Of a DNA stretch of 64,000 nucleotides, positions 1,129-52,372 are shown one piece after another. A model generated the notes under the pieces. The model ran no database searches and had not been told where the DNA came from. It was given only the letters and a program-made list of their open reading frames with translations. The stretch spans positions 62,001 through 126,000 of the forward strand of contig NZ_BONW01000034.1 of the NCBI RefSeq assembly GCF_016862915.1, written 5' to 3'. The translations under genes and the position numbers were made by a program. Position 1 is the stretch's first letter. Every line of letters begins with the position of its first letter. The DNA comes from Plantactinospora endophytica (lineage in GTDB: Bacteria > Actinomycetota > Actinomycetes > Mycobacteriales > Micromonosporaceae).

Positions 1129-1395
1129 CGTCACACTCCGCCAGTTCGGTGTTCGCCGTCCGGCCCGGACCCTGCCACCGCATCCTGGCCAGCCCGCGTC
1201 CGCACCGGTATCCGAAGTCGACAGCGTACCGATCAGAACCCGGCCGACGAACCCGCAGACATCGAGACACGCCACCGTCTTCGCCCGGCGACGGCGCCGA
1301 GAACCCTTGCCCCGACAGGGCTCCCGCCGTTCACCTGCCGCGACACTCCGCCGGGCGTGATGATCACGGTCCCGGGCCGGCGTTAAGGTACCCGG

Positions 1396-1767
1396 ATGGA
1401 AAAGCCCACCGTGGGTCTGGTCGACGGTCCGCCGCCGGCCGACCTCGTCATCGAGGACATAACGATCGGGAATGGCCAGGAGGTCCAACCGGGCCAATGG
1501 GCCGTGGTGCACTACGTCGGAGTCTCGTTCGACTCCGGCGAGGAGTTCGACTCGTCGTGGAACCGCGGTTCGCCGTTCAGCTTCCCCGTGGGTGGCGGCA
1601 AGGTCATCGAGGGTTGGGACCAGGGCGTACTCGGGATGCGGGTCGGCGGCCGGCGCAAGCTGGTGATCCCGCCGCAGCTCGGCTACGGCAACCAGGGCGT
1701 CGGCAACCGGATCAAGCCCGGCGCCACGCTCGTCTTCGTCGTCGACCTGGTCGACGTCAAGTTCTGA
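1396..1767 (+). CDS. FKBP-type peptidyl-prolyl cis-trans isomerase
   Basis: A 123-residue single-domain FKBP with no signal peptide, so cytoplasmic. It catalyses cis-trans isomerisation of Xaa-Pro bonds during folding. The family pattern is intact: VVHYVGVSFDSGEEFDSS, then a segment reading VIEGWDQGVLGMRVGGRR and VIPPQLGYG, which supply the hydrophobic active-site pocket (Tyr, Phe, Val-Ile, Trp, Tyr). AAGG lies seven bases before the ATG. It stands alone between a divergent methyltransferase and a convergent hydrolase. A strong hairpin follows the stop. Confidence 0.95.
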   Translation: MEKPTVGLVDGPPPADLVIEDITIGNGQEVQPGQWAVVHYVGVSFDSGEEFDSSWNRGSPFSFPVGGGKVIEGWDQGVLGMRVGGRRKLVIPPQLGYGNQGVGNRIKPGATLVFVVDLVDVKF

Positions 1768-1813
1768 TCCGTTCCGACGTCGAATCCTGACCCGGCCGGG
1801 TCCACCCCGGCCG

Positions 1814-1848
1814 ACGGGCCCCGGACGTCGACGACGCCCGGGGCCCGT
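1814..1848. terminator. Bidirectional terminator between FKBP and S15 hydrolase
   Basis: Perfect 11-bp inverted repeat (1814-1824 with 1838-1848, ACGGGCCCCGG in the left arm) with a 13-base loop, between two converging genes. There is no U-tract, as is usual in GC-rich actinomycetes. Confidence 0.6.
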
Positions 1849-1872
1849 GCAGCCGATCGGGCCGGTCCGCGC

Positions 1873-3744
1873 TCAGAAACCGAGCGCGGCCCGGCCGCCC
1901 ACCACCGGCAGGGTCAACGTGCTCGACTTGGGCAGCACGGTGAGCCGGGTGCCGGGCAGCGGCAGCAGGGTGTATTCCTGGTCACTGGAGAAGATCACCA
2001 GACCGAGCCGGTGACCCGCACGGAAGACGTAGTCCTTCGGCTCCATGGTCCAGCGGTAGTCGTTCATCCGTCCCGGCCGGACCGGTTGGCCGTGCGCCTC
2101 GCTGGTCCGGTTCTGCGGGTCCAGCCAGCCCCGGGTGACCACCACCGGCGCGTCGGTCGCCCCGGCCGGGCCGTAGTCGACCAGGTAGCCGGTCAGGTTC
2201 GCGGCCGTCCGGTTGTCGACCGAGAGGCGTACCCGAAGCTCCGGCCGACCCGAGATCCGCACGTCCCGGGCCAGCGCCGGGGAGGTGTAGACCAGCCGGT
2301 GCGGGTTGGCGCTCTCCGGCCCGGCCACCAGGTCGGCCGGCGCGATGGTCCGCCCCGAGTCGACCAGGCTCTGCGCGGCCCGGCCCCGCCCGCCGTGCCC
2401 GACCAGGCTGCCCGGTGCGGTCGGATCGGTCGCGGAGAGCCCCAGCGACACGTTCCGGGCGGCCGGATCCGGCCAGTCCCGGTACGTCGCGTAGACCCGG
2501 TCCTCCCGCTGCACCACCGCCCTCGGCTCGGCCATGATGTCGTTCTTGACGCCCCACAGCCAGTAGTCGAACCAGCGGTTCTCGGTCTGCTTGTAGGTCC
2601 ACGACCGGCCGTCCGGCAGGGTCACCGTGGCGGCGCTGCCCGGCCCACCGTGGCCACCCTGGTGCAGCCACAGCTTGCGCGGCACGCCGTACCGGTCGAG
2701 TTGGTCCCACCAGTCGGCGAACTGCCCGGTCTTCACGTTCCAGTCGTTCAGCCCGTGCACGACGAAGACACTCGCCCGGACCTTGCGTACCCCGGGCAGG
2801 TAGTCCCGGTCCTGCCAGAACCGGGTGTAGTCGCCGGTCACCCGGTCCTGTTCCTCGGTGATCGCTGCGATCTCGTCGGCACAGGTGCCCTCGGACCGGG
2901 CCTGTCCGGCGGTGTACATGGTCAGGATGTCCGCGTCCTCACCCTGGTATCCGCCGGGCGCCACCACCAGGCCGTTGGCCCGGTAGTAGTCGTACCAGTT
3001 GCTGATCGCGGCGACCGGGACGATGGTCTTCAGCCCCTCGACGCCGGTGGTCGCCACCATGTTCGGCAGGGTTCCGTTGTAGGAGACCCCAGTCATCCCG
3101 ACCGCACCGGTGGTCCAGCCGGCCCGCACCGGTACGCCGCTGGCGTCGTACGCCCTGGCCCGACCATTGAGCCAGTCGATGATCGCCTTGGTGCCCAGCG
3201 TCTCGGCCGAGTCACCGGTGGTCGGGCAACCGTCCGAGTCGCCGGTGCCGACGCTCTGGCCGAGCACCACCGCGTAGCCGCGCGGCACGTAGTAGTCGTC
3301 GAGCTGTCCGGGCAGGTTCGCCTTGGCCCGCAGGATGCTCGGCTCCTCCGCCCGTCGCGCCGACGAGCCGGCCGACGCGTTCTGCGGAAGGTCGTCGACC
3401 AGGACGCTCGGATAGGGTACGTCGTCCCAGGTGTCCTTCCGGTACGGCGAGTGCTCCAGGATCACCGGCACCCGCAGTCCGGCCGTGTCGGTCTCCCGGG
3501 GCCGGGAGATGTCCGCCACCACCCGGTCACGCCGGCCGTCGTGGTCGGTGTCGAGGGTGGTCTCCACCCACACCCGTTCCTCGATCGCGTCGGCGAACGA
3601 GAAGACCGGTTGGGTCATGCCGTCCTGCACGACTATGCCCGGTGGCGGCGCGGCCGGCGCGGCGCTGGCCGGTACCGGTGCCGCGACCAGGGCCAGTCCG
3701 ACCGCGTACGCCCCGAGAATCTTCACGGGACCTGCTGTTGGCAT
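1873..3744 (-). CDS. Secreted Xaa-Pro dipeptidyl-peptidase / CocE-type hydrolase (family S15)
   Basis: A 623-residue secreted serine hydrolase. The ATG at 3742-3744 is chosen because GAGGAG lies just upstream and the frame then begins with a signal peptide (hydrophobic residues 8-22, Ala-rich cleavage site near 30). The alpha/beta-hydrolase nucleophile is Ser221 in GMTGVSYNG. The acid is in VHGLNDWNVK and the histidine in LWLHQGGHGG, followed by the C-terminal jelly-roll domain of X-Pro peptidases and cocaine esterase. It probably trims proline-containing peptides outside the cell; ester hydrolysis is an alternative. It is monocistronic. Confidence 0.9.
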   Translation of the reverse strand: MPTAGPVKILGAYAVGLALVAAPVPASAAPAAPPPGIVVQDGMTQPVFSFADAIEERVWVETTLDTDHDGRRDRVVADISRPRETDTAGLRVPVILEHSPYRKDTWDDVPYPSVLVDDLPQNASAGSSARRAEEPSILRAKANLPGQLDDYYVPRGYAVVLGQSVGTGDSDGCPTTGDSAETLGTKAIIDWLNGRARAYDASGVPVRAGWTTGAVGMTGVSYNGTLPNMVATTGVEGLKTIVPVAAISNWYDYYRANGLVVAPGGYQGEDADILTMYTAGQARSEGTCADEIAAITEEQDRVTGDYTRFWQDRDYLPGVRKVRASVFVVHGLNDWNVKTGQFADWWDQLDRYGVPRKLWLHQGGHGGPGSAATVTLPDGRSWTYKQTENRWFDYWLWGVKNDIMAEPRAVVQREDRVYATYRDWPDPAARNVSLGLSATDPTAPGSLVGHGGRGRAAQSLVDSGRTIAPADLVAGPESANPHRLVYTSPALARDVRISGRPELRVRLSVDNRTAANLTGYLVDYGPAGATDAPVVVTRGWLDPQNRTSEAHGQPVRPGRMNDYRWTMEPKDYVFRAGHRLGLVIFSSDQEYTLLPLPGTRLTVLPKSSTLTLPVVGGRAALGF

Positions 3745-4166
3745 GGAGTTGCTCCTCTCGACCAGTCCTCGTGGGCCGGCGCCGGCGCCGTACTGCCCGG
3801 CGGTCCGGACCGGTTGTCGCGGCCGTCGGACCGGGCACTGTCCGCATCGGACGATGCGGCGCATTCCGGGGTTGTCGGAATGGTCGGAGCGGGCCGCGCC
3901 GAGAACGGGCTTGACTACGGCGGAAAAGAGATTGCCGATGGTGGGGACATTGACGGCTCATCCTAGATAGCCCAGCCCGATACGTCGATTGCTGGGGTGT
4001 CTTCGGCAGGATCACGGCAGCACCTGGCCCGGCCGGGACTTGGCTAACCGCCATACCGGGAGGTAGCTTGACCGCCGACATCGTAGACAGTTCGTACCGA
4101 CGTGACCGTTGACGGGGCCGGGAGCGCGACGGCGGCGAGTTCGTGCTTATTGGAGGCTGCATCCCG
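3745..4166. other. Intergenic region between divergent genes
   Basis: 422 bases between the S15 hydrolase and the Lys-rich protein. It must hold both promoters. No convincing -35/-10 pair, operator or small gene was identified. The stretch 3900-3960 is less GC-rich than its surroundings. Confidence 0.5.
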
Positions 4167-5303
4167 GTGAGTTCCTACACAATTACGATTTCCCCGGACG
4201 ACCAGACGCGAGCGACCACGACGTTACGCATCGAGGTCACCGAGAACGCCACCAGGATCACCGAACTGGTGGTACGCGCCGGTGCGGGTGGCGGACTCAC
4301 GCCAGGCGAGCTGCCCACCGTCGACGTCAACCAACTGCTGCGCGCCGTGATGCCGACCCGTACCGCGCCGACGGCGGCAGCCGGTACGACCCCGCTGGTT
4401 CCGGTCGAGGCACCGGCCGACGATCCTGCCGAGTCCGCCCCGTCCACCGGTACGGCTCCGCCGGCCACCGCGCCGGAATCGCCGGCTCCCTCCTCGGAGT
4501 TGTCGGCCACCTCGTCGGACTCGTCGGGGGCGTCCGCCTCGGCCGCCTCGTCGGACCCGGTCGGGGCTGCACTGTCCGCTGTGGAGTCCTCGCCGGAGAT
4601 GGTCGTGGAGCCGCCGGCCGGGAGCGGCACGGCGAAGGCAACTCCGTCCAGGAGCGCTGCCAGGAAGTCGGCGACGTCGGTAGCCGCTGGCCGGGGCGGC
4701 ACGGCAACGCCGAGCGCCCGGAAGAGCAGCACCGCGAGCAAATCCACCCCGAGCAGGTCCGCCACGAGCAGGTCCGCCACGAGCAAGACCGCCGCGAAGG
4801 ACAAGGCCACCGCGAACAGCAAGGCCGTCGCGAACAGCAGGGCCACCGCGACGAGCACGGCTGACACGAAGAGCACGGTGAGCAAGAAGAAGGCGGCCAC
4901 CGCGAAGAGCACCGGTACCGCCAAGGGCACAGGCACCGCGAAGAGCGCAGGCACCGCGGGTACCGCCAAGAGGGCGGCCGCCGGTGTCGACGGGAAGAAG
5001 AGTGTGCCGGGGAAGGCTGCGGTGGCGACCGGCGCCACCGCCGGCAGGCGGGCCGGCGGCCGGGCGACGACGAAGGGCAGCTCCGACACCGGCCGGGCAA
5101 CCGGCCGAGGGAGTTCGTCCACCGTCACCGCCGCGACTCCGGCGGCGGGTCGCTCGTACCGGCGCGCTCCGGACGATCTCGCGCAGGTCTACGGGCAGGC
5201 CGGCACCGTCACCGCCGTCGCCGACCACTACGGCGTGCCTCGGCACACCGCACAGAGCTGGGTCCGGACCTGGCGCAGCCGCCAGGCGGCGGCAACGACC
5301 TGA
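4167..5303 (+). CDS. Low-complexity Lys/Ala/Ser/Thr-rich protein with C-terminal helix-turn-helix
   Basis: A 378-residue protein in three parts. Residues 1-60 (YTITISPDDQTRATTTLRIE) look like a small ordered beta domain. Residues 60-325 are disordered, first acidic (Ser/Asp/Pro-rich) and then strongly basic, with repeated SKS, SRSAT and TAKST steps like the tail of histone H1 or mycobacterial HupB. The last 45 residues (DDLAQVYGQAGTVTAVADHY and on to HTAQSWVRTWR) form a clear helix-turn-helix. The GTG at 4167 has GGAGG nine bases upstream; an ATG at 4143 is an alternative. The domain order suggests a nucleoid-associated or DNA-bridging protein. This is inferred; I do not recognise the family. 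Confidence 0.7.
   Translation: MSSYTITISPDDQTRATTTLRIEVTENATRITELVVRAGAGGGLTPGELPTVDVNQLLRAVMPTRTAPTAAAGTTPLVPVEAPADDPAESAPSTGTAPPATAPESPAPSSELSATSSDSSGASASAASSDPVGAALSAVESSPEMVVEPPAGSGTAKATPSRSAARKSATSVAAGRGGTATPSARKSSTASKSTPSRSATSRSATSKTAAKDKATANSKAVANSRATATSTADTKSTVSKKKAATAKSTGTAKGTGTAKSAGTAGTAKRAAAGVDGKKSVPGKAAVATGATAGRRAGGRATTKGSSDTGRATGRGSSSTVTAATPAAGRSYRRAPDDLAQVYGQAGTVTAVADHYGVPRHTAQSWVRTWRSRQAAATT
4715..4975 (+). repeat. Degenerate 15-nt coding repeats in the basic tail
   Basis: Repeated units such as GAGCAGGTCCGCCAC, present twice in tandem near 4750-4780, encode the basic SRSAT/SKT steps. They blur into looser Lys/Ala/Thr repeats downstream. Confidence 0.6.
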
Positions 5304-5447: not shown

Positions 5448-6341
5448 TCAGCCGGTGCCGGGCGGGCCGGTGACCGGGTCGGCCCGGCCGGCGGTCCGGA
5501 TGGTCAGCCGGGTCCAGGCACCGAGGTAGACACGGTCGCCGTCGCCGAGCGGGATCGGGGTGTTGGCCACGATCGGCGCTGCCGCCGGGTCGTTCAGGTA
5601 GGTGCCGTTCGCGGACTCCAGGTCCACCACGGCCCAGCCCTCGGGCAGGGGCACCAGCAGCGCGTGCAGGTGGGAGACCCCGGGGTCCTCGGGCGGACCG
5701 ACCAGGTCGATGTCCGGGCGTACGCCCCGGGAGCGGCTGCGTCGGCCGATCAGCAACTGCCGGCGTTCCAGGGTGAACCGACGGGGTACGACGAAGCGGG
5801 GAAAGCTCAGGCTGCCGGCGTCCGTACCGCCGAACGAGGTGACGAGGTCGAAGTATCCGCGATCGGCGTCGACCACCAGTTGCCAGGTGTCGTCGGCACC
5901 GGGAGCGGTGACCTCGACCGATCCGCTGGTGGCGGGTGCGCTCCCGGCCGGTACCCCTCCGGGGTTGTCGAAAGCCGACGGCTCCGGGGCGGTACCGGTC
6001 GGGCCGACGCCGCCCGCCCCGGGGGTGCCGGTCGGTGCGGGGCTGACCGGCGGGGCGAGCAGGAAGTCGTAGCCGTCCTCCTCGCAGAACCTGCCCGCCT
6101 GCGGGGCACCGCAGACCGGGCACGGGGTGGCCGGCGCGGACTCCCCCGCCGACTCCGAAGCACCGCCGGCCGGTAGGCCACCGCTGGCCTGCGCCGGTGT
6201 CCCGAACCCGGGTGCCGGTGCCGCTCCTTCAGTGCCGTCCGGAGCCGGTCCGGCGGCGCCACGCGACATCGGTACGCCGCAGACGTCGCAGTAGTCCACG
6301 GTCGTCGACTCGTGGCCCCGGGGGCAGGTCGTCGCCGTCAC
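5448..6341 (-). CDS. FHA-domain protein with two N-terminal zinc ribbons
   Basis: 297 residues. Cys6, His10, Cys18 and Cys21 make a first zinc ribbon. A second candidate (Cys74, Cys77, Cys86) follows a Gly/Pro/Ala-rich linker, and an FHA domain fills residues 180-290. The phosphothreonine-binding signature is intact: Gly-Arg at 199-200, Ser223 and His226 in VSHLHALL, and Asn245 in ESANGTYL. FHA domains read phosphothreonine, so the likely partner is the kinase encoded upstream. It is the last gene of the operon, with its ATG four bases after the VWA stop. In mycobacteria PknG acts on the FHA protein GarA; this one is larger and lacks an evident N-terminal TT phospho-acceptor motif, so equivalence is only a hypothesis. 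Confidence 0.9.
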   Translation of the reverse strand: MTATTCPRGHESTTVDYCDVCGVPMSRGAAGPAPDGTEGAAPAPGFGTPAQASGGLPAGGASESAGESAPATPCPVCGAPQAGRFCEEDGYDFLLAPPVSPAPTGTPGAGGVGPTGTAPEPSAFDNPGGVPAGSAPATSGSVEVTAPGADDTWQLVVDADRGYFDLVTSFGGTDAGSLSFPRFVVPRRFTLERRQLLIGRRSRSRGVRPDIDLVGPPEDPGVSHLHALLVPLPEGWAVVDLESANGTYLNDPAAAPIVANTPIPLGDGDRVYLGAWTRLTIRTAGRADPVTGPPGTG

Positions 6342-6345
6342 CGGC

Positions 6346-7638
6346 TCACCCCTGCTCCTTCTTGACCCGAACCGTCTTCACCGACCGTACGTCGGTCAAC
6401 TCCGTGTCCATCGTGGACACCTGTCGCTTGAGCTGGACCGTACCGGTCGGTGCGTCGATGACGTCGACCACCCGGCCGAGCAGCATCGCCGTCTCGTCGT
6501 GGCCCGACTCGGCGGCCAACTGGACGGCCCGGCCCAGCCTGGCGGTCGCCGTTTCCACGTCGCCGGCCTCCCGGGCCCGCAGCCCCTCCTGGATCGCGGC
6601 GGCGAGTTCGGCCTGACCGGTGTAGTGCGCCACCTGCGGGCTGATCCGGGTGGACAGCGCGGTGTCGTCGGTCCACCTGGCCAGGACCAGCCGCTCGGTC
6701 AGTGCCTGGCCGGCGCTGATCAGGCTGACCCGGGCCGCCAGCACCTCCTCGCCGACCGCGTCGGGTTCGAGGCTGACGGAGATGTGGTATTCGCGGGTCT
6801 CCGCGCCCCATGCGCCGGTCGGATAGTCGCCGATCCGGGCACTGACCGCCGAGCGACGCGCGGTGAGTTCCTCCACGTGCGGGAAGACCTGCTTCACCAT
6901 CCGTACCGTCGCGCCGGCCGGAGTCCAGATCCGCAGCGCGACGTCCGCCACCCGCTTGCCCATCGCCGCCGCCGTCATCGCCTGGAACGCGGCCGGCAAC
7001 TGTGCCGGATGTTCCAGTCCGTCGGCCGTGCCGAGCAGGGCCGAGGCGACCGTACGCAACTCGCTGGCCACCCAGCCGCTGCCGATCCCCCGGCTGTCAC
7101 AGACGAAGCGGCCCTCGCAGACGGCGAGTATCCGGCGCAGTTCCTCGGGCTTCTCGTGCTCGTTGCGGCCGTCGGTGAGCAGGATCGCGTGCCGTACCTC
7201 GGCGGGACAACTGGCGAAGAGCCAGTTGGCCAGGTCGAGCCAGCGGCCGATCGCGGTGCCGCCGTCGGCCCGCAACTCCGCCACCGCCGCTTTCGCCGCC
7301 GCCCTGGTCTGCACGTTCGCCGGCACCATGCCCGGCTGCGCCGGATAGACCATCCGGGCGAGCGCGGTCCCGGACACCACCGCGAAGGCGACCCCGTCGC
7401 GCAGAGTGTCGATCGCGACCGCCGTGGCACGTTTCGCCTCGGCGAGCTTGGTCGGCGGCATGGCCATCGAGCCCGAGGTGTCGATCATGATCACCTGCGC
7501 CGCCGTCGGGGCGGCCGCCGGGTCGCGCAGGTCCGGGCCGGAGGCGGTCACCGTCAGGATCGCGTCCACCACCTGGCCACCGGCCGGCAGGTACTCGTTG
7601 TGGTCCACCTCGGCGACGAACTGCGGCATCCCGGTCAC
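6346..7638 (-). CDS. VWA-domain protein (CoxE/TerF-like, MIDAS intact)
   Basis: 430 residues, cytoplasmic, with no signal peptide or membrane segment. The GTG at 7636-7638 is chosen because GAGGAG lies seven bases upstream; a longer open frame exists but overlaps the phosphatase gene. A von Willebrand A domain spans about residues 47-235, with metal-ion-dependent adhesion site Asp53-Thr-Ser-Gly-Ser57, and LLTDGRNEHE further on. A beta-rich domain and a C-terminal helical tail follow. VWA proteins of this kind scaffold metal-dependent complexes. Its place between a PP2C phosphatase and an FHA protein suggests a role in assembling or sensing the phospho-signalling complex. Confidence 0.9.
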   Translation of the reverse strand: MTGMPQFVAEVDHNEYLPAGGQVVDAILTVTASGPDLRDPAAAPTAAQVIMIDTSGSMAMPPTKLAEAKRATAVAIDTLRDGVAFAVVSGTALARMVYPAQPGMVPANVQTRAAAKAAVAELRADGGTAIGRWLDLANWLFASCPAEVRHAILLTDGRNEHEKPEELRRILAVCEGRFVCDSRGIGSGWVASELRTVASALLGTADGLEHPAQLPAAFQAMTAAAMGKRVADVALRIWTPAGATVRMVKQVFPHVEELTARRSAVSARIGDYPTGAWGAETREYHISVSLEPDAVGEEVLAARVSLISAGQALTERLVLARWTDDTALSTRISPQVAHYTGQAELAAAIQEGLRAREAGDVETATARLGRAVQLAAESGHDETAMLLGRVVDVIDAPTGTVQLKRQVSTMDTELTDVRSVKTVRVKKEQG

Positions 7639-7649
7639 CTGCCCACTCC

Positions 7650-9824
7650 TCACGCTCCTGCGGCGGGCGGGAACGGCAGTACCGCGACCGCGATGTTGTC
7701 GTGCCCGCCGGCCTCCACCGCGAACCGGGTCAGGTTCTGGGCGATCGCGATCGGCGTGGCACCACCCGGTCCCGGTACCCGGGCGGCCAGCGCTGCCGCG
7801 TTCGGCAGGTAGTGCGAGAGCCCGTCCGAACAGATCACCAGTCGTCCCGGCCGACCCGGCTGGAACGTCACCACCTGCGGCTCGGCATCGCCGGAGTCCG
7901 CACCGAGCCACCGGACGAGCGCTTTCGAGGTCGGATCCTGCTCGGCGCCGGGCGGCACCGGCCGGCCCGCCCGGATCTGGCCGACCACCGAGTCGTCGAC
8001 GGTCAGGCAGACCGCCTCGTGCACCGCACCGTCCGGACCGAGCCAGTAGGCCCGGCTGTCACCGATCCAGCCCACCGTCACCGAGCCGACGGTGACGACG
8101 GCGGCGACGAAGGTGCAGCTCGGCGGTACCTGTCCGTCGTCCGACACGGCGGTGGCCCGGGCCGCTCCGGCGGCGGCGCGGCCGGCCGCGCCGACGGCGT
8201 CGGGTGGGGGCGCTCCGCCCGCCAGAGCGGCGAGCATCGCGGAGAGGCCGGCCTCCGCCGCCGCGTGTGCGGCGAGGTCGGCGCGCAGCGAGGTAGACAC
8301 CCCGTCGCAGACCACGGCCGCGATCGTCGGCCCGAGGCGGCCGATCGTGACCGCGTCCTCGTTGCGCCGCCGCCGGGCCCGGTCCGTGACCGCCGCGACC
8401 GGGCCGAGGTCCAGGTCGGCACGGTCCCGGCCCACCGAGGAACGCCGTCCACAGTGGTCGCAGTGGCCCGCGTCGCCGGAGTTGCCGGACGGCGGGGTGC
8501 CGCAGCTCGGACAGGGCTGGTCGACCGCACGCGACGAGAGCCACGGTCCGGGCGGAACGGCGGAACCGGGCGTACCCACCGGGGAGCCCGGAGCGGCGGC
8601 CGGTACGCCGGTGGCAGCGAACGGTGTGCCGGTCGCGCCGGCCGGAACGGGTGGTGCACCGGTGGGACCGGCCGGAACCGGCGCGGCTCCGGTCGGACCC
8701 GCGAATGTGGGTGGCCTGGGCGGCACCACGGCACCGGTGGTCGACGGGACCGGGGTGTGCACACCGGCCGGGCCTGGCCATCCAGGTGATCCGGCGGCCG
8801 GACCGGACCAGCCGGGTGATCCGGCCGGTGCCGGCGGGCCGGGTGGAGGCGGCGTGGCCGGACCGGACCAGCCCGGCGACGGTGGGGCGGCCGGAGCAGG
8901 CCAGCCCGGCGACGGTGGAGCGGCCGGGCCGGACCAGCCCGGCGACGGTGGCGACGCCGCACCGGGCCGGCCCTGCGGTGCGGCCGCTCCGGGCGGTACA
9001 GGTCCGGGAGGTGCGGCCGGCGGGGCGTATCCCGCCCAGTGGCCGGAAGCGGCCGGAGGCGGGGGTGCGGCTCGGCCCGAGGCACCGGGCGGAGCGGCCG
9101 TACCCCGGTTCGCGGGCGGCGGTGGTGCCGGCGGCGGTGCGCTCGCGGCGGTACCGGACGGAGCATGCCAAGCCGTCGTCGCCGGCTGGCCGCCCTGGTC
9201 CGGTCGCCAGTCCGGGGGCGGTGGCGCCTGCGCCATGCCGACCGGATCGGACCACGCCGACCCTACCGGCGCGGCCGAGCCCGTCGGCCACGACGATCCA
9301 CTCGACTGCGTCGGCGCGCTCGGCGGGACGGCGGAGCTGGTCGGCCACTGCGATCCGCCCGACTGCGACAGGCTGCTCGGCGGCCCGGCCGAGCCCGTCG
9401 GCCACGACGACCCGCCGGACTGCGACGGCACGCTCTGTGGCGCCGACGAGCCGGTCGGCCGCGACGACCCGCCCGCCGACGACGACCCGCTCGGCGGCGA
9501 CGAGCCGGTTGGCCCGGCCAGTGCCTCCAGCCGGGACAGCGCGGTCGGGCCGGCGAGTTCGGCCAGCCGGGACAGCTCGGTCGACTCCGCCGACGCGGCC
9601 GGGGCGGGAACTTCGGCACGGCCGGTCGGAGCCGAGACGGCCGGGCCGAGGGAAGCGCCTGCCGGCGCCGGCCAACCGGACACCCCGGTCGCCTCTCCGA
9701 GCGGAACACGCTCCAGCTCCCGGCCGCAGACCTCGCAGTACCGGTGCCCCGGGTCGTCGGGTGCGCCGTGCTCGGGACAGGGTTTCGGCGTACTGCCGGC
9801 GGTGCCGGCTCCGGCGGTGCTCAT
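7650..9824 (-). CDS. PP2C-family Ser/Thr phosphatase with zinc ribbons and long Pro-rich linker
   Basis: 724 residues. The N-terminal zinc ribbon uses Cys16, His19, Cys30 and Cys33 (RYCEVCGRELE). About 400 residues of Gly/Pro/Ala/Ser-rich repeats (SGSSWPTGS and SPGWSGPAAPP units) follow, then a second Cys4 ribbon (CPSCG and CDHCG), then the PP2C domain over roughly the last 240 residues. Catalytic metal motifs are present: RRRRNEDAV, VVCDGVS, VGWIGDSRAYW, VICSDGLSHYL and GGHDNIAVAV. It should dephosphorylate Ser/Thr targets with Mn or Mg, opposing the adjacent kinase. The ATG overlaps the pknG stop by four bases, so translation is coupled. Confidence 0.92.
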   Translation of the reverse strand: MSTAGAGTAGSTPKPCPEHGAPDDPGHRYCEVCGRELERVPLGEATGVSGWPAPAGASLGPAVSAPTGRAEVPAPAASAESTELSRLAELAGPTALSRLEALAGPTGSSPPSGSSSAGGSSRPTGSSAPQSVPSQSGGSSWPTGSAGPPSSLSQSGGSQWPTSSAVPPSAPTQSSGSSWPTGSAAPVGSAWSDPVGMAQAPPPPDWRPDQGGQPATTAWHAPSGTAASAPPPAPPPPANRGTAAPPGASGRAAPPPPAASGHWAGYAPPAAPPGPVPPGAAAPQGRPGAASPPSPGWSGPAAPPSPGWPAPAAPPSPGWSGPATPPPPGPPAPAGSPGWSGPAAGSPGWPGPAGVHTPVPSTTGAVVPPRPPTFAGPTGAAPVPAGPTGAPPVPAGATGTPFAATGVPAAAPGSPVGTPGSAVPPGPWLSSRAVDQPCPSCGTPPSGNSGDAGHCDHCGRRSSVGRDRADLDLGPVAAVTDRARRRRNEDAVTIGRLGPTIAAVVCDGVSTSLRADLAAHAAAEAGLSAMLAALAGGAPPPDAVGAAGRAAAGAARATAVSDDGQVPPSCTFVAAVVTVGSVTVGWIGDSRAYWLGPDGAVHEAVCLTVDDSVVGQIRAGRPVPPGAEQDPTSKALVRWLGADSGDAEPQVVTFQPGRPGRLVICSDGLSHYLPNAAALAARVPGPGGATPIAIAQNLTRFAVEAGGHDNIAVAVLPFPPAAGA

Positions 9825-12517
9825 ACCAGCGTCCTCGGCCGTACCGCGTTCGCGTGGTCGACCAGCGCGATCCGCAGCTCCGGGTCGCGGGAGAGCTGGG
9901 CCAGGGTGCGGTACGCCCGCTCCAGCCCGAACCGCAGGCCACGCTCGGACAGCTCGTGCCCGAGCAGCCGGGCGACCGCAGAGGGAGGCGCCGAACGGCT
10001 CCTCACCCAGGCCAGGGCCACCTCCAGCACCTCGATGGTGAGCCGGGTCTGCCGCTCGACGTCGAGCCCGAGCCGCTCCAGCCGGGCGGACGCCCGTAGC
10101 AGGTCCTCCGGCCCCGTCCCGCCTGCGGCCAGCCCCGGCAGGCTCGCCCGGACGGCGGCGACCTGGGCGGCCACGTGCTGACTCGAACTGTCCGGCACCT
10201 GGTCCAGTACGGCGAGCGCGCCCGCGCGGTCACCGACCAGGAACCGGATCCGGGCCAGCCCGAACGCGGCACTCAGGTAGCCGTGGTCGGCCCGCCACAC
10301 CCGGTCGTACAGCCGGGTCGCCAGCTCCCGGTCACCGGTGCACTCCGCGCTCACGGCCAGCGCCAGCCGGGCGGCCGGCTCGCCGGGCAGCACGTCGTAG
10401 ACCGCGTCGAAGGCGACCCGGGCCTCGGCGGGGCGGTTCGCGGTCAACGCCGCCAGGCCCCGGTACCAGTCCACCCGCCAGTCGAACGGGTCGGCCTCGG
10501 CCAGCCGGTCCAGGTCGGTGCCGGCTCCGGCCAGGTCGCCGCCCTCGATCCGGGCCCGGGCCAGCCGCAGTGCCACCTCCACGCTGCGCACCGGTGCGGC
10601 GGTGAGCTGGCGGACCAGTTCCGCCGGGTCGGTCGCGCCGAGCGAGGCGAGGAAACCGGCACCGGGGTCGAGCACGTCGACCTGGGGCAGCGGCAACGCG
10701 GCGGCGACCACCGGCGGCGCCGGGGCGATCGCACCGGGTGGTACGCCACCACCGGCGCCCCAGGCCCGGCCGGCCACCGCCCGACCGACCTCGCCGGCCT
10801 CGGTGCCGAAGGCGCGCCGCTCCGGCGTGAACTGCCGGGACACCGCCGGCCGGGGCACCCCGTCGACGGCCGAGAGCACCTCGCGCAGTACGCCGAGCAG
10901 TTGCTCGCTCATCTCCCCGGCACTCTGGAAGCGCCGGTCCGGATCGGGGTGGGTGGCCCGGCGCAGCAGCCGGTGGTACGACATCTCGGCGGCGAACAGC
11001 GGTGCGTCGGCCGGCTCGGGCAGCCGGTTGGCGTACGTGCTGGAGAAGCCGCGGAAGTCGAGACTGAGCACTGCCAGCGCCCGGCCGACGGTGTAGATGT
11101 CGGAGGCGACCGAGGGGCCGAGCGTGCCGACCTCCGGCGCCTGGTAGCCGGGCGTGCCGAAGATGGCGCTGGCACTGTCGTCGACGTGGCGTACCGCGCC
11201 CAGGTCGATGAGTTTGAGCTGCTCCTCGGCGTGGATGACGTTGTCCGGCTTGAAGTCGCAGAAGAGCAGGTTCCGGTCGTGCAGGTAGTCCAGGGCCGGC
11301 AGGATCTCGACCCCGTAGGCGATCACCTCGGGCAGCGGCAGCGCCCGTTGGCCGGTGTCCCGGCGCCGGGCCAGCAGCATGTCGCGCAGGGACTGGCCGC
11401 CGACGTACTCCATCACGATGTAGCCGACCGGGGTGCCGGTACGCGGATCGGGGTGCTCCACGAAGTCGTGGATCTTGACGATGTTGGGGTGGTCCAGCTC
11501 GACCAGGAACCGGCGCTCGGCCACGGCCGAGGCCATCGCGTCCACGTCGGAGGTGTTGATCAGTCCCTTGAGTACCACCCAACGGTCGCTGACCGTGTCG
11601 CTGACGTTGCGGTCCCGAGCGAGGTAGATCCAGCCCAGGCCGCCGTACGCGAGCGCGCCGAGGATCTCGTAACGCCCGTTGATCACGTCACCGGGACCGA
11701 GCCGGGGTACGAAGGAGAACTGGGTGCCACAGTGCGGGCAGAAGCCCTCGGCCCGACCCGGCCGGTCGTCCCGCCCCCGCCCGACCGGCTTCTCGCAGCT
11801 CACGCAGAACCGCCGCGACTCGGCGACCTTCGGCTCGGCCATCACCGCCGTCGCCGGGTCGCGCAGCGGCACCCGGGCGATGTCGACCAGGCCGGCGCCG
11901 AGGCCGCCCCGGGACGCGCTCCGGGACCGGGTGGATCCCCGCGAGCCGGAACTTGACGTGCCCCGGCTCGGCATGGTGCCGACCCCGGTGGACGCCGACC
12001 CCCGCCCGGCGCCGGTCGACGCCGGACCCTGACCGGTGGACGCCGGACTCACACCCGGACCCTGACCGGTCGACACCGGACTCACACCGGGGCCGTAGCC
12101 GGTCGGCGGCACCTGCCCCGGGCCACCCGACGCCGGCCCCTGGCCCTGGCCGGTCGAGATCGGAGACTGGCCCTGGCCGGTCGAGATCGGAGACTGGCCG
12201 GTCGCTGCCACGGGCTGGGCGGGCACCGGGCCGTGTCCCGCCGGACCCCGCCCGACACCCGCACCGGTGGAGACGCCGACAGCGCCGGCCGGTACGACCG
12301 CCCGGCCGGTACCGGTCGGCACCGACGCCCGTCCCGTTCCGGTCGGTGCGGCGGCCCGGCCGGTGCCGGTCGGTGTCGCCACCGCGCCGGTACCCGTCGG
12401 GCCGGTCGTCTCGGGACCCGCCGTCGCCCCGGCCGGCGCCCGCCGACCGCACTCGTCGCAGTACCCGTCGGGGAGGTAGGAGCCTGGGCAACCGGGCCGC
12501 AGGCAGCGGGTGCTCAT
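9821..12517 (-). CDS. pknG: Serine/threonine protein kinase PknG
   Basis: 898 residues. In order: an extra N-terminal zinc ribbon (Cys5, Cys10, Cys20, Cys23), a repeat-rich linker (SPISTGQGQ units), a rubredoxin-like ribbon (FCVSCEK and FCPHCGTQF) near 240-275, a kinase domain about 280-560, and C-terminal TPR helices. Kinase motifs include GALAYGGLGWIYLARD, the lysine in WVVLKG, the catalytic loop YLHDRNLLFCDFKPDNVI and IDLGAV. DLG in place of DFG also occurs in mycobacterial PknG. Known PknG controls glutamate metabolism through an FHA protein. The stop of the coiled-coil gene overlaps the ATG by four bases. The first zinc ribbon is not part of the classic PknG plan and recurs in the phosphatase and FHA proteins of this operon. 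Confidence 0.95.
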   Translation of the reverse strand: MSTRCLRPGCPGSYLPDGYCDECGRRAPAGATAGPETTGPTGTGAVATPTGTGRAAAPTGTGRASVPTGTGRAVVPAGAVGVSTGAGVGRGPAGHGPVPAQPVAATGQSPISTGQGQSPISTGQGQGPASGGPGQVPPTGYGPGVSPVSTGQGPGVSPASTGQGPASTGAGRGSASTGVGTMPSRGTSSSGSRGSTRSRSASRGGLGAGLVDIARVPLRDPATAVMAEPKVAESRRFCVSCEKPVGRGRDDRPGRAEGFCPHCGTQFSFVPRLGPGDVINGRYEILGALAYGGLGWIYLARDRNVSDTVSDRWVVLKGLINTSDVDAMASAVAERRFLVELDHPNIVKIHDFVEHPDPRTGTPVGYIVMEYVGGQSLRDMLLARRRDTGQRALPLPEVIAYGVEILPALDYLHDRNLLFCDFKPDNVIHAEEQLKLIDLGAVRHVDDSASAIFGTPGYQAPEVGTLGPSVASDIYTVGRALAVLSLDFRGFSSTYANRLPEPADAPLFAAEMSYHRLLRRATHPDPDRRFQSAGEMSEQLLGVLREVLSAVDGVPRPAVSRQFTPERRAFGTEAGEVGRAVAGRAWGAGGGVPPGAIAPAPPVVAAALPLPQVDVLDPGAGFLASLGATDPAELVRQLTAAPVRSVEVALRLARARIEGGDLAGAGTDLDRLAEADPFDWRVDWYRGLAALTANRPAEARVAFDAVYDVLPGEPAARLALAVSAECTGDRELATRLYDRVWRADHGYLSAAFGLARIRFLVGDRAGALAVLDQVPDSSSQHVAAQVAAVRASLPGLAAGGTGPEDLLRASARLERLGLDVERQTRLTIEVLEVALAWVRSRSAPPSAVARLLGHELSERGLRFGLERAYRTLAQLSRDPELRIALVDHANAVRPRTLV
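12144..12197 (-). repeat. Two perfect 27-bp tandem units in the pknG linker
   Basis: Identical copies at 12144-12170 and 12171-12197 encode SPISTGQGQ twice. Related 33-35 bp degenerate units continue at 12020-12095. The repeat is in frame (27 = 9 codons). Confidence 0.85.
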
Positions 12518-13755
12518 GGTACGGCTCCCTTCGCGCCGGGCGTCGGACGCTCGGCGAGGTGGTTGAGATGACGCTGGTACGCGACCACGGCCCGGGTCGC
12601 CGCCGACAGGTCACACGGGCTGGTGTACAGCAGGTCGCGGGCCTGCCGGTACCGGGCGGAGAGTTCGGTGTGCTCGATCAGGCCGAGCCGGCCCGCCTTC
12701 GCCCGGTACGCGTCGAGCCGCCCCCGCAGCTCCGCCCGGCGCCGCAGCAGTCCGTCGGCCGCCTCGTGGAACTCGGCCGCCCGGCGCCGGGCGTCCGCCA
12801 CGCCGCGTTCCAGCGCGACGAGTTCGGCACCGACCTGGGCCCACCGGTGCTCGCGGTGCACCTGGCCGAGCTGGGCCAGTTGGGCACGCAGCGCCGGACC
12901 GGGATCCCGGGGCAACTCGGGCAGGGCCGAATTCGCGATCTTGGCCAGCGCCAGCGCGTGCACCCGGGCGGTCTCGGCGGCCGTCCCGGCCAGCTCGTCC
13001 AGTTCGGCCGCCAGCCGGGCGGCCCGGTCGGGGTAGCCGTCGCGGACCTGGGTCAGCTCGGCGAGCCGACCCGCCAGGTCGGCCAGCTCGGCCTCGAACC
13101 GTCGCAGCCCGTCCCGGAGACCGTTCCCGACCGAACCGGTACCGGCCGCACCGAACGGATCGGCCAACGCGTCCTGGTACGCCTCCTCGACCGCCCGGTC
13201 GAGCCGGTCGAGCTGGTCCAGCTCGACCGCGTCGACCCGCAGCCGGCGGAGCGCGTCGGTGAGCCGCCCGAACCAGCCGGCGAGCCGATCCCGGGCAGCC
13301 TCCAACTCGGACAGCGACCCAGCCAGCTCGGCTGCTTCCGCCTCGATCCGCCGGGCCAGTTCGGTCAGCCCGACCCGCTCGAAGGGTGCACCGGCGGCGT
13401 CGTCCAGTACGGTCCCGGCGGCGTCGAGCCCGACCACCGGGGCTCGCAGCAGATCGCCGAGTTCCCGCAGCTCGACGTCGCCGGGCCGGGAGCGCCGGGC
13501 GCGTACCTCGCGGGCCTGGCCCAGCACCTCGCCGAAGGCGGCGAACTGGGACCAGAGCGCGTCGGCCCGGGCCAGCAGGCCGGCAGCGACCTGCGCGGTC
13601 TCGCCGGTCTGGCGGGTACCACGCAGCAGGGCCAGCTCGGGCCGGCCGTCCAGGGCGTACATCGCGGCCGAGGCCCGATCGTGTGCCGCGCCGAGGACGT
13701 CGAGTACCCGGTCGGCCTCGGCGCGGCTCATCGGCGACTGCGGCGGCACGGTCAT
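12514..13755 (-). CDS. Helical/coiled-coil protein of the pknG operon, unknown function
   Basis: 413 residues, almost wholly helical. It is rich in Leu, Ala, Arg and Glu with heptad-like spacing (LRRFEAELADLAGRLAELTQ; RAQLAQLGQVHREH) and has no signal peptide, membrane segment or catalytic motif. The ATG at 13753-13755 begins a sensible N-terminus (MTVPPQSPMSRAEADRV). A GTG at 13842, one base after the glnH stop, would add 29 residues of poorer composition. Its stop overlaps the pknG start by four bases. Its position between the glutamate-sensing genes and the kinase suggests an adaptor that links GlnX to PknG. I do not recognise a named family. Confidence 0.8.
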   Translation of the reverse strand: MTVPPQSPMSRAEADRVLDVLGAAHDRASAAMYALDGRPELALLRGTRQTGETAQVAAGLLARADALWSQFAAFGEVLGQAREVRARRSRPGDVELRELGDLLRAPVVGLDAAGTVLDDAAGAPFERVGLTELARRIEAEAAELAGSLSELEAARDRLAGWFGRLTDALRRLRVDAVELDQLDRLDRAVEEAYQDALADPFGAAGTGSVGNGLRDGLRRFEAELADLAGRLAELTQVRDGYPDRAARLAAELDELAGTAAETARVHALALAKIANSALPELPRDPGPALRAQLAQLGQVHREHRWAQVGAELVALERGVADARRRAAEFHEAADGLLRRRAELRGRLDAYRAKAGRLGLIEHTELSARYRQARDLLYTSPCDLSAATRAVVAYQRHLNHLAERPTPGAKGAVP

Positions 13756-13843
13756 CGGCACCGCTAACCGGGGTTCGCGGAAACGGCCGGTGGTGCGGAG
13801 TCGCCGGTATCCCACCGCTGCGCTGGAAGGTCCACGAGACACG

Positions 13844-14836
13844 CTAGTCCCGGTAACGCGCGACCGGTGGCGCGGGCGCCGGACCCAGCGACGTCAGCCA
13901 TCGGCTGTAGAGCCGGGTCCACGTCCCGTCCGACCGGATCTTGGCCAGTACGCCGTTGACGAACCGGACGAGTTCCGGCGACTCCCGCGAGATCGCCACC
14001 CCGTACGGCTCGTCGCTGAACTTCGGGCCGACCACCTCGGTGTTCGGGTCCTGGGCGGCGAGCCCGACCAGGATGCTGTCGTCGGTGGAGACCGCGACGA
14101 CCTGGTTCTGCTGGAGCAGTACGAGGCAGTCCGTCCAGTTGACCACCGACACCGGCACGGTGCCCTTCTGCGCGATGTTCCGGATCGAGGTGCTGCCCGC
14201 CGCCGCGCAGACCTTCTTGCCGCGCAGGTCGTCGATGGTCTTCACCCCGGAGCCCCGGGCCACCAGGACGCGCTGACCGGCGGTGAAGTACTCGGTGGAG
14301 AAGTTGACCTCCTGCCAGCGTTCGCAGTTCATCGTCATGGTCCGCACCACCAGGTCGACGGTGCCCTCCTTGACCATCTTGATCCGGTCGGCCGAGCTGA
14401 TCGCCATGAACTGGATCCGGCCCGGGTCGCCGAAGAGGCCCCGGGCGATCTCCCGGGCGATGTCGACGTCGAAGCCGGTGAGCTGGCCGGTCTGGGGGTC
14501 GCGGAAGCCGAACTGGTAGTTGTTCTGGTCGACGCCGACGATCAGCCGTCCACGCTGGACGATCTTGGCCATCGCCGTACCGGAGGGCATCTGGCGGGGG
14601 CGGGGCAGCGCACCGGACGGGCGGAGGCTGGCCCGGGGGTTGCACGAACCGGACGACGCCGCCGGACCGGTCGGCACGACCGCCGGATCCTGCATGCCGA
14701 CCGGTCGGGGCGGGTCGGCCGCCACCTGGTTGGCGGGTAGCGCCTGCTCGCCCGTGCCGCAGCCGGCGAGACCCACCGTGGCGACCGCCACGAGGACGCC
14801 GGCCAGCAGCCGGCCGGAAATATGCCGGTGTCTCAT
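13844..14836 (-). CDS. glnH: Amino-acid-binding lipoprotein GlnH
   Basis: 330 residues. The ATG at 14834-14836 overlaps the glnX stop by four bases. A lipoprotein signal (VATVGLAGC) places it on the outer face of the membrane. The rest is a family-3 solute-binding protein, with RGRLIVGVDQNNYQFGF, TGFDVDIAREIARGLFG and VDLVVRTMTMNCERW forming the ligand cleft. In mycobacteria GlnH binds aspartate and glutamate and signals to PknG through GlnX. The same gene order is present here, and no ABC permease or ATPase is attached, which supports a sensory rather than a transport role. An extra Pro/Ala-rich stretch links the lipid anchor to the binding domain. Confidence 0.92.
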   Translation of the reverse strand: MRHRHISGRLLAGVLVAVATVGLAGCGTGEQALPANQVAADPPRPVGMQDPAVVPTGPAASSGSCNPRASLRPSGALPRPRQMPSGTAMAKIVQRGRLIVGVDQNNYQFGFRDPQTGQLTGFDVDIAREIARGLFGDPGRIQFMAISSADRIKMVKEGTVDLVVRTMTMNCERWQEVNFSTEYFTAGQRVLVARGSGVKTIDDLRGKKVCAAAGSTSIRNIAQKGTVPVSVVNWTDCLVLLQQNQVVAVSTDDSILVGLAAQDPNTEVVGPKFSDEPYGVAISRESPELVRFVNGVLAKIRSDGTWTRLYSRWLTSLGPAPAPPVARYRD

Positions 14837-16194
14837 CGGTACTCCGCAATCCGCCGCTGCATGCCCACCGCGACCCCGACCAGCAACACGAGGCCCAGTC
14901 CGACGATACCGATGTCGACACCGGTCAGGGCCCGCCCGGCACTGACCGCCTCGCGTTCGAACCGGTCCCCGTTGTGCGTGATGGCCAGCGCGAGCGCCTC
15001 GTCGAGCTGGTTGAAGATGGCGGCGGTGGTCTGCTCGCCGGTGCCCACGGTGGCGGCCACCGCCTTCGCGTACTCGCCGCTGTCGTCGAGGGCGCGCACG
15101 TTGCGGTGCGCCGCCGACCACTCCTTGCTCCGGGCGATCGCGGCCTCGACCGCCTGCCGGGTGGTGTCGTCCGGAGCCGCCGCGCGGGCCCGCGCCAGCA
15201 GGCCGCCCTCGCCGTCGGCACCGGCGAGCCGCTCCATCATGACGCCGTAGTTCTCCTCGAAGGCCGCACCGTTGCCCCGGGCGACCAGGGTCAGTGCCTC
15301 GTCGGCGCGGGCCTGCAACCCGGCGATCCGGGCCTCGGCGAGCAGGTTCACCTGGGCGGACCCCTCGTCCCGGCTGTCCCCGAGGTTGCCGGCCGCGACC
15401 AGCGCCGACCCGGTCAGCCAGGTCACCAGCAGCAGCGTTGCGCCGGTACCGACCAGCAGTCCCACGTTGAGCAGCCGGTTGGTGCGCCGGGTCAGGTGGA
15501 TCTGGGTCAGCACCAGCGCGGCCAGGGTCAGCACGGCGAGCAGCACCGCGACCCAGGGGAAGCCGGCCGCGCGGTCCCGCGCCTCGTCGAGCTCGGTCGA
15601 GGCCGCGGCGTACAGCTCCTGGGCGGCGGGAAGCAGCTCGTCGCGCATCAGGCCGGAGGCTTCCTGCAGATAGGCGACGCCGAGCGGCAGGCCCTGCCGG
15701 TTGTAGGTGCGGGCGGTCTCCACCAGGCCGCTGTAGACCGGCAGCCGGGCGGTGATCCGGGCGACCGCCGCCGCGCCCCGGCCGTCGGAGGAGACGGCGG
15801 CCGAGACGACCGTCAGCGCGGAGGCCGCGTCGGCCAGGTCCCGCTGGTAGCGGTCCCGCATGGCCGGCGGTTCGAGACCGTTGGAGAGGAAGGCGCTCGC
15901 GGCGGTGGCGTCGGCGTCGGAGAGCGCGCGGTAGAGACTCTGCGCGGCCACGGCGACTTCCCCGCTGCGCGCGGTCACCCCTCGGACCAGGTCCGCGCGC
16001 TGGCGGACACCGACGAACGCGACCACCCCGGTGAGCAGTCCCAGCACGACGATCCCGGCCAGGATCGCGGTGAACCGGCCGGGCGTACGCCGCAGCGGTG
16101 TGGTCAACCGTCGCAGCCGCTCCGGCGGGCGGGGTTGCGGCGCGACAGCCAACCGGCCTGGCGGGACAGCGACCGCCGACCCGTGCGAACCCAC
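14833..16194 (-). CDS. glnX: Four-pass membrane signalling protein GlnX
   Basis: 453 residues. The GTG at 16192-16194 has GGGGGAGG six bases upstream. Hydrophobic helices are near residues 38-60 (AILAGIVVLGLLTGVVAFV), 215-235 (VAVLLAVLTLAALVL), 245-270 (VGLLVGTGATLLLVTWLTG) and 425-445 (GIVGLGLVLLVGVAV). They bracket two helical extracytoplasmic regions of about 150 residues each, as in chemoreceptor-like four-helix sensor domains. Mycobacterial GlnX passes the GlnH signal to PknG; the neighbours are the same here. It is the first gene of the seven-gene operon, so the operon promoter should lie in 16195-16400. Confidence 0.88.
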   Translation of the reverse strand: MGSHGSAVAVPPGRLAVAPQPRPPERLRRLTTPLRRTPGRFTAILAGIVVLGLLTGVVAFVGVRQRADLVRGVTARSGEVAVAAQSLYRALSDADATAASAFLSNGLEPPAMRDRYQRDLADAASALTVVSAAVSSDGRGAAAVARITARLPVYSGLVETARTYNRQGLPLGVAYLQEASGLMRDELLPAAQELYAAASTELDEARDRAAGFPWVAVLLAVLTLAALVLTQIHLTRRTNRLLNVGLLVGTGATLLLVTWLTGSALVAAGNLGDSRDEGSAQVNLLAEARIAGLQARADEALTLVARGNGAAFEENYGVMMERLAGADGEGGLLARARAAAPDDTTRQAVEAAIARSKEWSAAHRNVRALDDSGEYAKAVAATVGTGEQTTAAIFNQLDEALALAITHNGDRFEREAVSAGRALTGVDIGIVGLGLVLLVGVAVGMQRRIAEYR

Positions 16195-16438: not shown

Positions 16439-17005
16439 TCAGCCGGTGGTCCAGACGTACGTGCCGGCGACGCTCGCCGCCGCTGTCTCGGCATACGCGG
16501 GCGCGAGGCCGCCGGCGAACAGCGAGTCGACCCGGGCCGCCTCCGCCGCGCTCGGGTACGCGTTGCGGCAGGAGACGGGTGCACTGCTGCCGGACATCAG
16601 ATCGGAGCAGAGCCCGGTGCGCCGGTCGGGCAGCCCGAGGATGTGCCCCAACTCGTGGGTGGCGATCCGGGTCCGGTCGTACCCCTGGTTCACGGCCTGC
16701 CAGCCCATGTAGACCCGGCCGGAGCCGAGCCCGGTGACGTACGCCCGCGGCCAGCCGCTGTCGACGTAGATCGTCACACTCGCCGGGGTGCCGGCGACCA
16801 GTCGTACGTTGCTGACGCTGCTGTTCCAGATCTGCGCGGCCTGGGTGAAGTTGGTGGTGAACTCCCCGGCCCGGCTCGCGTCGTAGTAGACGGTGCGTAC
16901 CGCCGGCGCCGCGCTGGCCGGCGCGGTGGCGACCTGGACCCCGACCAGCGAGGTGGCCAGGGTCAACAGGCCGAGCGTGGCCCGGAGGAGGTGGCGTCTG
17001 AGCAT
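16439..17005 (-). CDS. Snapalysin-type secreted zinc metalloprotease (family M7)
   Basis: 188 residues with a signal peptide (LLRATLGLLTLATSLVGV, Ala-rich cleavage near residue 32). The zinc site is ATHELGHILGLPD, the HExxHxxGxxD metzincin-like pattern of snapalysins, which lack a Met-turn glutamate. Two later cysteines (TGLCSDLMS and VSCRNAYP) match the family disulfide. It is a small neutral protease exported to the medium. Streptomyces snapalysins are usually paired with a divergent LysR activator; here the divergent gene is a LacI regulator 411 bases away, so that pairing is missing. Confidence 0.93.
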   Translation of the reverse strand: MLRRHLLRATLGLLTLATSLVGVQVATAPASAAPAVRTVYYDASRAGEFTTNFTQAAQIWNSSVSNVRLVAGTPASVTIYVDSGWPRAYVTGLGSGRVYMGWQAVNQGYDRTRIATHELGHILGLPDRRTGLCSDLMSGSSAPVSCRNAYPSAAEAARVDSLFAGGLAPAYAETAAASVAGTYVWTTG

Positions 17006-36303: not shown

Positions 36304-36550
36304 GTCTACACAGAGTGCGCATATACCAGCGAAAAGTCGGAACACCGACACTGCTGTCCCGGCCGACGCCCCCGCTCCCGACGCCCGTCCCACCGCCGCG
36401 CCGACCACTCCGGCCGATGCCCGGCCCGGCCGTAGTCCGGCCCTGATCCGGCACTGATCGCACCTGGACGGCACCGTGACGGGGATGACCACGCTGGACC
36501 GTGCGCCACCGCCAGATCCGGCGGCGGGCGACGAAGGGAGATCCGCAGCG

Positions 36551-37522: not shown

Positions 37523-37650
37523 AGTCAGTCTCCGGCGAGGTGGGTCTCCCGCCAGGTCAGTCTTCGGCCAGGTCAGTCTCCGGCCAGGTCAGCCTTCGGC
37601 GAGGTCAGCCTTCGGCGGAGTCAGTCATCGGCGGAGTCAGTCATCGGCGG
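37523..37650. repeat. 16-nt tandem repeat, eight units
   Basis: Units of 16 bases (GGTCAGTCTTCGGCCA and variants; the last two are identical) between the terminator and the SARP gene. The final unit contains the SARP stop codon at 37637-37639. Confidence 0.93.
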
Positions 37651-40774: not shown

Positions 40775-40962
40775 CCGCTTTCCCGACCTCCCCGTGGTCT
40801 CCGCACCCGTCGACACCCCGACCGTGTCCCGGTTCGGAACTCCGCCCTCGCACCGCAAGCGTTCCCGAAGATCTGCCGAAGGTCACCCCGGCACAGTTCA
40901 TCCCGTCCGTACCGGTGCACGGGTACCGGTGTCACCGACCAGTGGAGAGGACGGGGACGGCC

Positions 40963-52221: not shown

Positions 52222-52306
52222 GCGGGTGGGGGCACGGGCGACGACCGTTCCCGATTTCGGCCGGCACCCCCTGCCGGCGATCCGCACCCCACCTTCCGGA
52301 ATGCCC

Positions 52307-52340
52307 GGTGCCACCGACGACGGTCGTCGTCGGTGGCACC
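52307..52340. terminator. 15-bp perfect hairpin after lsr2
   Basis: GGTGCCACCGACGAC at 52307-52321 pairs perfectly with 52326-52340 around a GGTC loop, between the converging lsr2 and L,D-transpeptidase genes. Confidence 0.88.
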
Positions 52341-52372
52341 CGTGTCGGAACCGTCCGCATCCGCGCGGCTGG

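Follow-up and report, generated by a model that had tools for sequence, protein, structure and literature searches.

A 64,000-nucleotide stretch of Plantactinospora endophytica (contig NZ_BONW01000034.1, positions 62,001 to 126,000, hereafter the window; host genome, 9.7 Mb) carries the gene for the kinase PknG within an operon of seven genes, whose products are a GlnX-family transducer, a GlnH-type binding lipoprotein, a coiled-coil protein (cc), PknG, a PP2C phosphatase, a VWA protein and an FHA protein (Table 1), and this cluster is conserved in many actinobacteria. Archaea use the VWA protein ArnB in a nutrient-controlled phosphorylation switch, and by analogy with the archaeal pair ArnA/ArnB we read the operon as an amino-acid-controlled phospho-switch that would have its sensor, kinase and phosphatase encoded together, a reading to which we assign a probability of about one half.

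A seven-gene PknG operon shared by many actinobacteria

Gene sets are written below with the letters X, H, c, K, P, V and F for GlnX, GlnH, cc, PknG, PP2C, VWA and FHA. Matches to PknG_rubred were found in 77 of 150 genomes of the host's family, Micromonosporaceae, and 36 of 396 genomes of the phylum (27 over the cut-off), from which 118 loci were fetched: 94 of the 95 family places and 23 of the 31 over-cut-off phylum places outside the host genome, together with the host's own second copy. With the window added and 12 loci dropped for short flanks, 107 loci had full flanks, and in these gene presence was counted within 9 kb and in any order. All seven genes were present in 55 of the 107; partial sets beside PknG were XHPF (13 loci), XH only (9), XcV (7), XHcV (5), cV (4), XHcVF (3), XHVF (3) and XHP (2), and six other combinations occurred once each. 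A second sample, from a scan with a cc profile, comprised at least 80 named loci, which were selected by c and are therefore uninformative on the frequency of cc; the order XHcKPVF occurred here in Phytohabitans, Actinorhabdospora, Phytomonospora, Streptomyces, Streptacidiphilus, Actinocrispum, Kibdelosporangium, Amycolatopsis, Actinospica, Tsukamurella and Rhodococcus rhodnii, and Actinomadura relatives had cKPVF-XH. The 58 full-flank loci of this sample included 25 with XHcKPVF and 20 with cKPVFXH, and across all samples XHcKPVF was the commonest order (79 of 193 loci).

A preliminary description of this DNA had placed these seven genes on one strand (all were found there, on the reverse strand) and had proposed a search for their order across Micromonosporaceae and other actinomycetes; the order is not strain-specific, because 55 of 107 loci hold all seven genes and genera such as Phytohabitans, Streptomyces and Amycolatopsis share it. 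Homologues of the seven proteins occur in 113 to 164 of the 164 other full-flank loci of both samples, the value for PknG being 164 by construction and that for cc being 113 partly since 58 loci were found via cc. Seven neighbouring open reading frames (ORFs) of the window recur in just 1 to 6 of these loci, so that the conservation of the seven genes goes beyond chance; two of these ORFs overlap, one on each strand, and some 20-kb loci may not reach as far as the most distant one. The description's tight junctions also hold at five of six places: genes overlap by 4 bases at GlnX/GlnH, cc/PknG and PknG/PP2C and are separated by 11 bases at PP2C/VWA and 4 bases at VWA/FHA, and the GlnH/cc gap may be wider: it measures 88 bases if cc begins at the ATG at 13755, or 1 base if it begins at the GTG at 13842. 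A search for terminator-like sites between 5200 and 16700 yielded none, which is a weak test, 1.2 such sites being expected in shuffles.

VWA and cc proteins accompany PknG and its zinc ribbon

Among the 107 loci, cc and VWA occurred together in 76, VWA alone in 7, neither in 24 and cc alone in none. In 20 genomes, 13 of 13 matches to the VWA subfamily above 250 bits were no more than about 5 kb away from a PknG match, and the best of the remaining matches scored 61 bits. The presence of VWA is mirrored by PknG itself: over the 165 full-flank loci of both samples, 132 of the 141 loci with VWA encode a PknG with the N-terminal zinc ribbon, and of the remaining nine, eight retain three cysteines out of four and the ninth, L117, has a PknG frame that is split. 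The ribbon was found in just 2 of the 24 loci without VWA: L017, a close relative of loci that do have VWA, and L043, which has mixed tree neighbours. Both clades that are without VWA and cc are also without the ribbon (XHK, 0 of 10; XHKPF, 0 of 14). XHcKV paralogues have a degenerate ribbon on PknG and a C-terminal ribbon on the VWA protein (4 of 4).

The host genome has a second PknG operon on contig C5, and in this and ten further loci cc forms the C-terminal part of a trypsin-like protein and is followed by PknG and VWA, with no PP2C or FHA; His and Ser motifs are present in all 11 loci, and Pfam assigned Trypsin_2 in the two that were scanned. Because these paralogue loci hold cc, PknG and VWA without PP2C or FHA, cc-PknG-VWA is what most forms other than the XHK and XHKPF clades share, with sensor, phosphatase/FHA or protease as additions.

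No family scored above cut-off for cc in profile scans; its C-terminal motif, RxELRGRLDAYRAKA...APCDL, is conserved. For the full-length VWA protein, the predicted fold is that of archaeal ArnB, in which VWA domain, beta-sandwich and C-terminal helix bundle make up one fold, and a near-invariant threonine, Thr422, lies at the edge of its disordered tail. We also considered membership in the TerY-P triad, a similar kinase/PP2C/vWA-type module in which the VWA protein bears a TerY_C domain, and rejected it: a Pfam scan of the VWA ORF returned VWA-type domains and VWA_3_C and no TerY_C at E 0.01.

Sensor, enzymes and FHA protein

GlnX passes the cut-off of its family model (Table 1) and falls below that of the stricter equivalog NF041460 (222.3 bits against 780). 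At the seven ligand-binding positions named for Mycobacterium tuberculosis GlnH in the available part of PMC6069109, the window protein, with residues placed by eye, is identical at five (R147, T162, R169, W232 and D250) and conservative at two (S164 to Thr, K161 to Arg). In family and in Asp-binding residues, GlnX and GlnH are thus those of the sensor pair, as judged from sequence. Aligned by eye to 2pzi, PknG has the lysine and aspartate that we take to be catalytic and the four cysteines that are presumably those of the rubredoxin. The motifs that we take to form the PP2C metal site (130-sequence alignment) and the FHA phosphothreonine (pThr) site (GR, VSxxH and NxT; 143-sequence alignment) are conserved, most positions at 95% or more and some at 70%, and zinc-ribbon motifs also occur on both of these proteins.

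The operon's FHA gene was rejected as an OdhI/GarA orthologue (NF041660, 17.9 bits against a cut-off of 200), and the orthologue lies elsewhere in the genome, on contig C12 (206.9 bits); the module therefore appears to add to the classic pathway. PknG phosphorylates OdhI at Thr14, next to Thr15, according to the accessible text of PMC2784874, and for this reason we take the first threonine of the GarA motif ETTS as the PknG-type acceptor. ETTS is present in GarA of seven of seven genomes of family f2 and five of five of family f4, which we infer to be mycobacteria-like and Streptomyces-like, respectively. The host's own GarA has DVTST at its N-terminus, without that first threonine, and the same holds for the top-scoring copy in each of the 15 Micromonosporaceae genomes read, a count that does not include the second copies of G444 and G451 or the G189 copy.

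The three-gene operon is probably reduced

The ten XHK loci form one clade (support 1.0), which is of the mycobacterial type: against M. tuberculosis PknG 2pzi, the PknG of one member, L087, reaches 1273 bits and that of the window 540. Because this clade is nested among larger operons in two trees of PknG cores under different rootings (148 cores, rooted on L102, from a genome of another class; 165 cores, rooted on Streptomyces-type paralogues), the three-gene operon, which is also that of the published GlnX-GlnH-PknG pathway as described in the available parts of PMC6069109 and PMC8546545, is probably a reduced form of the larger one. Support at deep nodes is uneven and neither root is a distant outgroup; the root on L102 is doubtful, because the second tree places L102 inside the ingroup. 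A full seven-gene operon was also found in Rhodococcus rhodnii (L138), and since its PknG groups with those of Amycolatopsis, Actinocrispum and Kibdelosporangium, away from the XHK clade, this suggests horizontal transfer.

Coordinates and neighbouring genes

Table 1. Features of the PknG operon in the window and of related genes elsewhere in the host genome; family scans covered part of the window.
Feature	Position	Strand	Remarks
GlnX-family transmembrane signal transducer	14833..16194	(-)	GTG start; NCBIfam NF058618, 420.5 bits against cut-off 250
GlnH-type amino-acid-binding lipoprotein, predicted Asp/Glu binder	13844..14836	(-)	SBP_bac_3; phmmer to M. tuberculosis GlnH 6h2t, E 2e-91
cc, all-helical coiled-coil protein	12514..13755	(-)	ATG start; alternative GTG at 13842; AlphaFold mean predicted local distance difference test (pLDDT) 94.7
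PknG: N-terminal zinc ribbon, Thr/Gly-rich linker, rubredoxin, kinase, TPR	9821..12517	(-)	Pfam PF16919, PF00069, PF16918; 2pzi, E 1.5e-160
Zinc ribbon of PknG N-terminus (CLRPGCPGSYLPDGYCDEC)	12449..12505	(-)	residues 5-23 of P0004; position calculated by hand
PP2C phosphatase, zinc-ribbon-like motifs N-terminal and pre-catalytic	7650..9824	(-)	Pfam PF13672
VWA protein: beta-sandwich, VWA, C-terminal helix bundle	6346..7638	(-)	Pfam VWA_3 and VWA_3_C; predicted model
FHA reader (putative): two N-terminal zinc-ribbon-like motifs, C-terminal FHA	5448..6341	(-)	Pfam PF00498
GarA/OdhI orthologue	L103 1468-1929	(-)	DVTST for ETTS; near gcvH-like ORF (by eye)
Second PknG operon, contig C5	L003 6829-14974		GlnH-like, trypsin-like protease fused to cc, PknG, VWA with C-terminal zinc ribbon, GlnX-like

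Immediately upstream of the operon is a gene for a Peptidase_M7 extracellular metalloprotease (16439-17005, reverse strand); a homologue of it adjoins PknG in 4 of the 164 other loci, one of them outside the genus. Further along the window, two large ORFs for BTAD/TPR transcriptional regulators lie near each other on the reverse strand (32887-36840 and 37637-40858), the first with its BTAD domain at the C-terminal end. In L017, a relative from the same genus whose operon is reduced to XHKP, the operon adjoins ORFs (region 803-5000) whose starts resemble, by eye, those of window ORFs 51874, 52373 and 59546; the window counterparts of these neighbours (region 51874-60730) stand about 35 kb or more from the window operon, which suggests a rearrangement.

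Discussion

Under the phospho-switch reading, periplasmic Asp or Glu would bind GlnH, and GlnX would relay the signal to the TPR domain of PknG, which would phosphorylate threonines of the VWA protein, in its tail or its C-terminal helix bundle, with Thr422 as the best candidate. The zinc-ribbon FHA protein would bind phospho-VWA tightly and PP2C would reverse the phosphorylation, with the zinc ribbons on PknG, PP2C and FHA serving to dock these proteins on the VWA hub, in the way that the zinc finger of ArnA docks on ArnB, and with cc as an adaptor that may hold PknG and VWA together. Somewhat less probable than this is a broader proposal, that a bacterial ArnA/ArnB-type switch operates under PknG, in which kinase, phosphatase and FHA reader dock on the VWA hub via zinc ribbons; that the mycobacterial operon is a remnant which has shed hub, adaptor, phosphatase, reader and ribbon; and that the sister form plugs a trypsin-like protease into the same cc adaptor.

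Several observations weigh against the phospho-switch. Because the XHKPF clade of Micromonosporaceae (13 of 107 loci, in the three genera g247, g249 and g250) keeps PP2C and FHA without VWA and cc, these two can work without a VWA hub, and the paralogue clades, conversely, keep cc-PknG-VWA without PP2C or FHA. VWA occurs with no detected cc in seven loci, L017 and L043 have the PknG ribbon and no VWA, and the XHcKV paralogues combine VWA with a PknG ribbon that is merely degenerate. Thr422 is also present in 15 of 22 loci lacking FHA, the presence of FHA being confounded with VWA clade, and the strict VWA tail motif occurs without an FHA gene in 4 loci and is missing from 33 of 119 loci with FHA. 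The similarity in sequence between VWA and ArnB is weak (profile E 2.7e-5 to 8s05, over the VWA part only), and the ArnAB authors place ArnB-like folds mostly outside multi-phosphorylation processes (PMC12852372). The change in GarA is not tied to the operon, because two family genomes (G204 and G402) show it with no PknG_rubred match. Of the claims in the preliminary description, that of VWA and cc as module partners is strengthened by their co-occurrence, by the restriction of strong VWA matches to PknG loci in 20 genomes and by the correlation with the PknG ribbon. The VWA "scaffold" goes beyond a generic one, its predicted full-length fold being that of ArnB; the "FHA reader" has its gene in the operon but is distinct from GarA; and the "self-contained phospho-switch" holds in part, since a compact operon of sensor, kinase, phosphatase and reader is supported but there are variants that do without VWA/cc or PP2C/FHA.

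We consider it unlikely that the FHA protein, instead of VWA, is the direct PknG substrate and the output, like GarA/OdhI in mycobacteria, with VWA and cc auxiliary. In its favour, PknG, PP2C and FHA occur in the XHKPF clade with neither VWA nor cc, and the six XHKPF sequences examined, out of 14, also have conserved residues at the pThr site; however, none of these six FHA proteins shows an ETTS-type motif, the window FHA lies outside the GarA family, PknG-cc-VWA is found without FHA, and VWA identity between the window and six distant loci (49-57%) is above that of PknG (44-49%, values lowered by the linkers in the PknG alignments).

Still more doubtful is a module for stress or conflict, of the kinase-zinc ribbon/PP2C/vWA kind, that would control assembly or proteolysis, not metabolism. 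The proteases fused to cc in the PknG paralogue operons speak for it, as does the triad that Kaur et al. (2020) describe near GAP1-N2 GTPases, in the available part of their text (PMC7159879), but the window operon has no protease, MoxR or GTPase gene, and it includes a sensor pair for amino acids in which the ligand residues are conserved. Apart from PknG, whose PADLOC matches, among those listed, cover the kinase part, no operon protein matched PADLOC models better than E 0.0056. Finally, we give little credence to an ordinary PknG-GarA pathway with extra genes that are co-transcribed and do unrelated work: the genome has a GarA/OdhI orthologue and the GlnX-GlnH-PknG-GarA pathway is established (available parts of PMC6069109 and PMC8546545), yet the acceptor threonine of GarA is lost in the family, and across loci VWA and cc go together with PknG and its zinc ribbon.

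Comparison with known systems

With the GlnX-GlnH-PknG-GarA/OdhI pathway of mycobacteria and Corynebacterium, the window system shares GlnX, GlnH with its Asp/Glu pocket, a PknG of rubredoxin, kinase and TPR domains, and a genomic GarA orthologue; it differs in four extra operon genes, in the N-terminal zinc ribbon of PknG, found in none of the ten loci of the three-gene clade, and in a GarA that in this family is without the PknG-type acceptor threonine. The PknG literature, in its available parts, centres on these organisms and on a three-gene operon that appears reduced; if our phospho-switch reading is true, the wider operon would equip PknG with a second output of its own in other actinobacteria, Streptomyces among them. 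The triad of Kaur et al. (2020) also puts a kinase-zinc ribbon, a PP2C and a vWA protein side by side in actinobacteria, and the window operon differs from it by having no GTPase gene and by adding sensor, FHA and cc; PknG is not mentioned in the available portion of that paper (PMC7159879).

The window VWA has the same predicted fold as ArnB, the archaellum regulator of Sulfolobus, and the window FHA protein resembles ArnA in having an N-terminal zinc motif and a C-terminal FHA domain with pThr-site residues, a likeness at the level of sequence motifs. Unlike Sulfolobus ArnA-ArnB, with kinase ArnC and phosphatase PP2A, the window system is bacterial, has PknG and a PP2C, and includes sensor genes and cc in the operon; the sequence similarity of its VWA is weak, and the likeness is known from sequence and predicted fold. 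If the phospho-switch reading holds, a nutrient switch known from archaea would have a counterpart in bacteria. The VWA protein caci_2163 of Catenulispora acidiphila (4fx5) has no link to PknG in the accessible part of its literature, and here its family sits in PknG operons; on the phospho-switch reading, 4fx5, which is cited as a structural match in the Arn papers, would gain a concrete and testable biochemical role.

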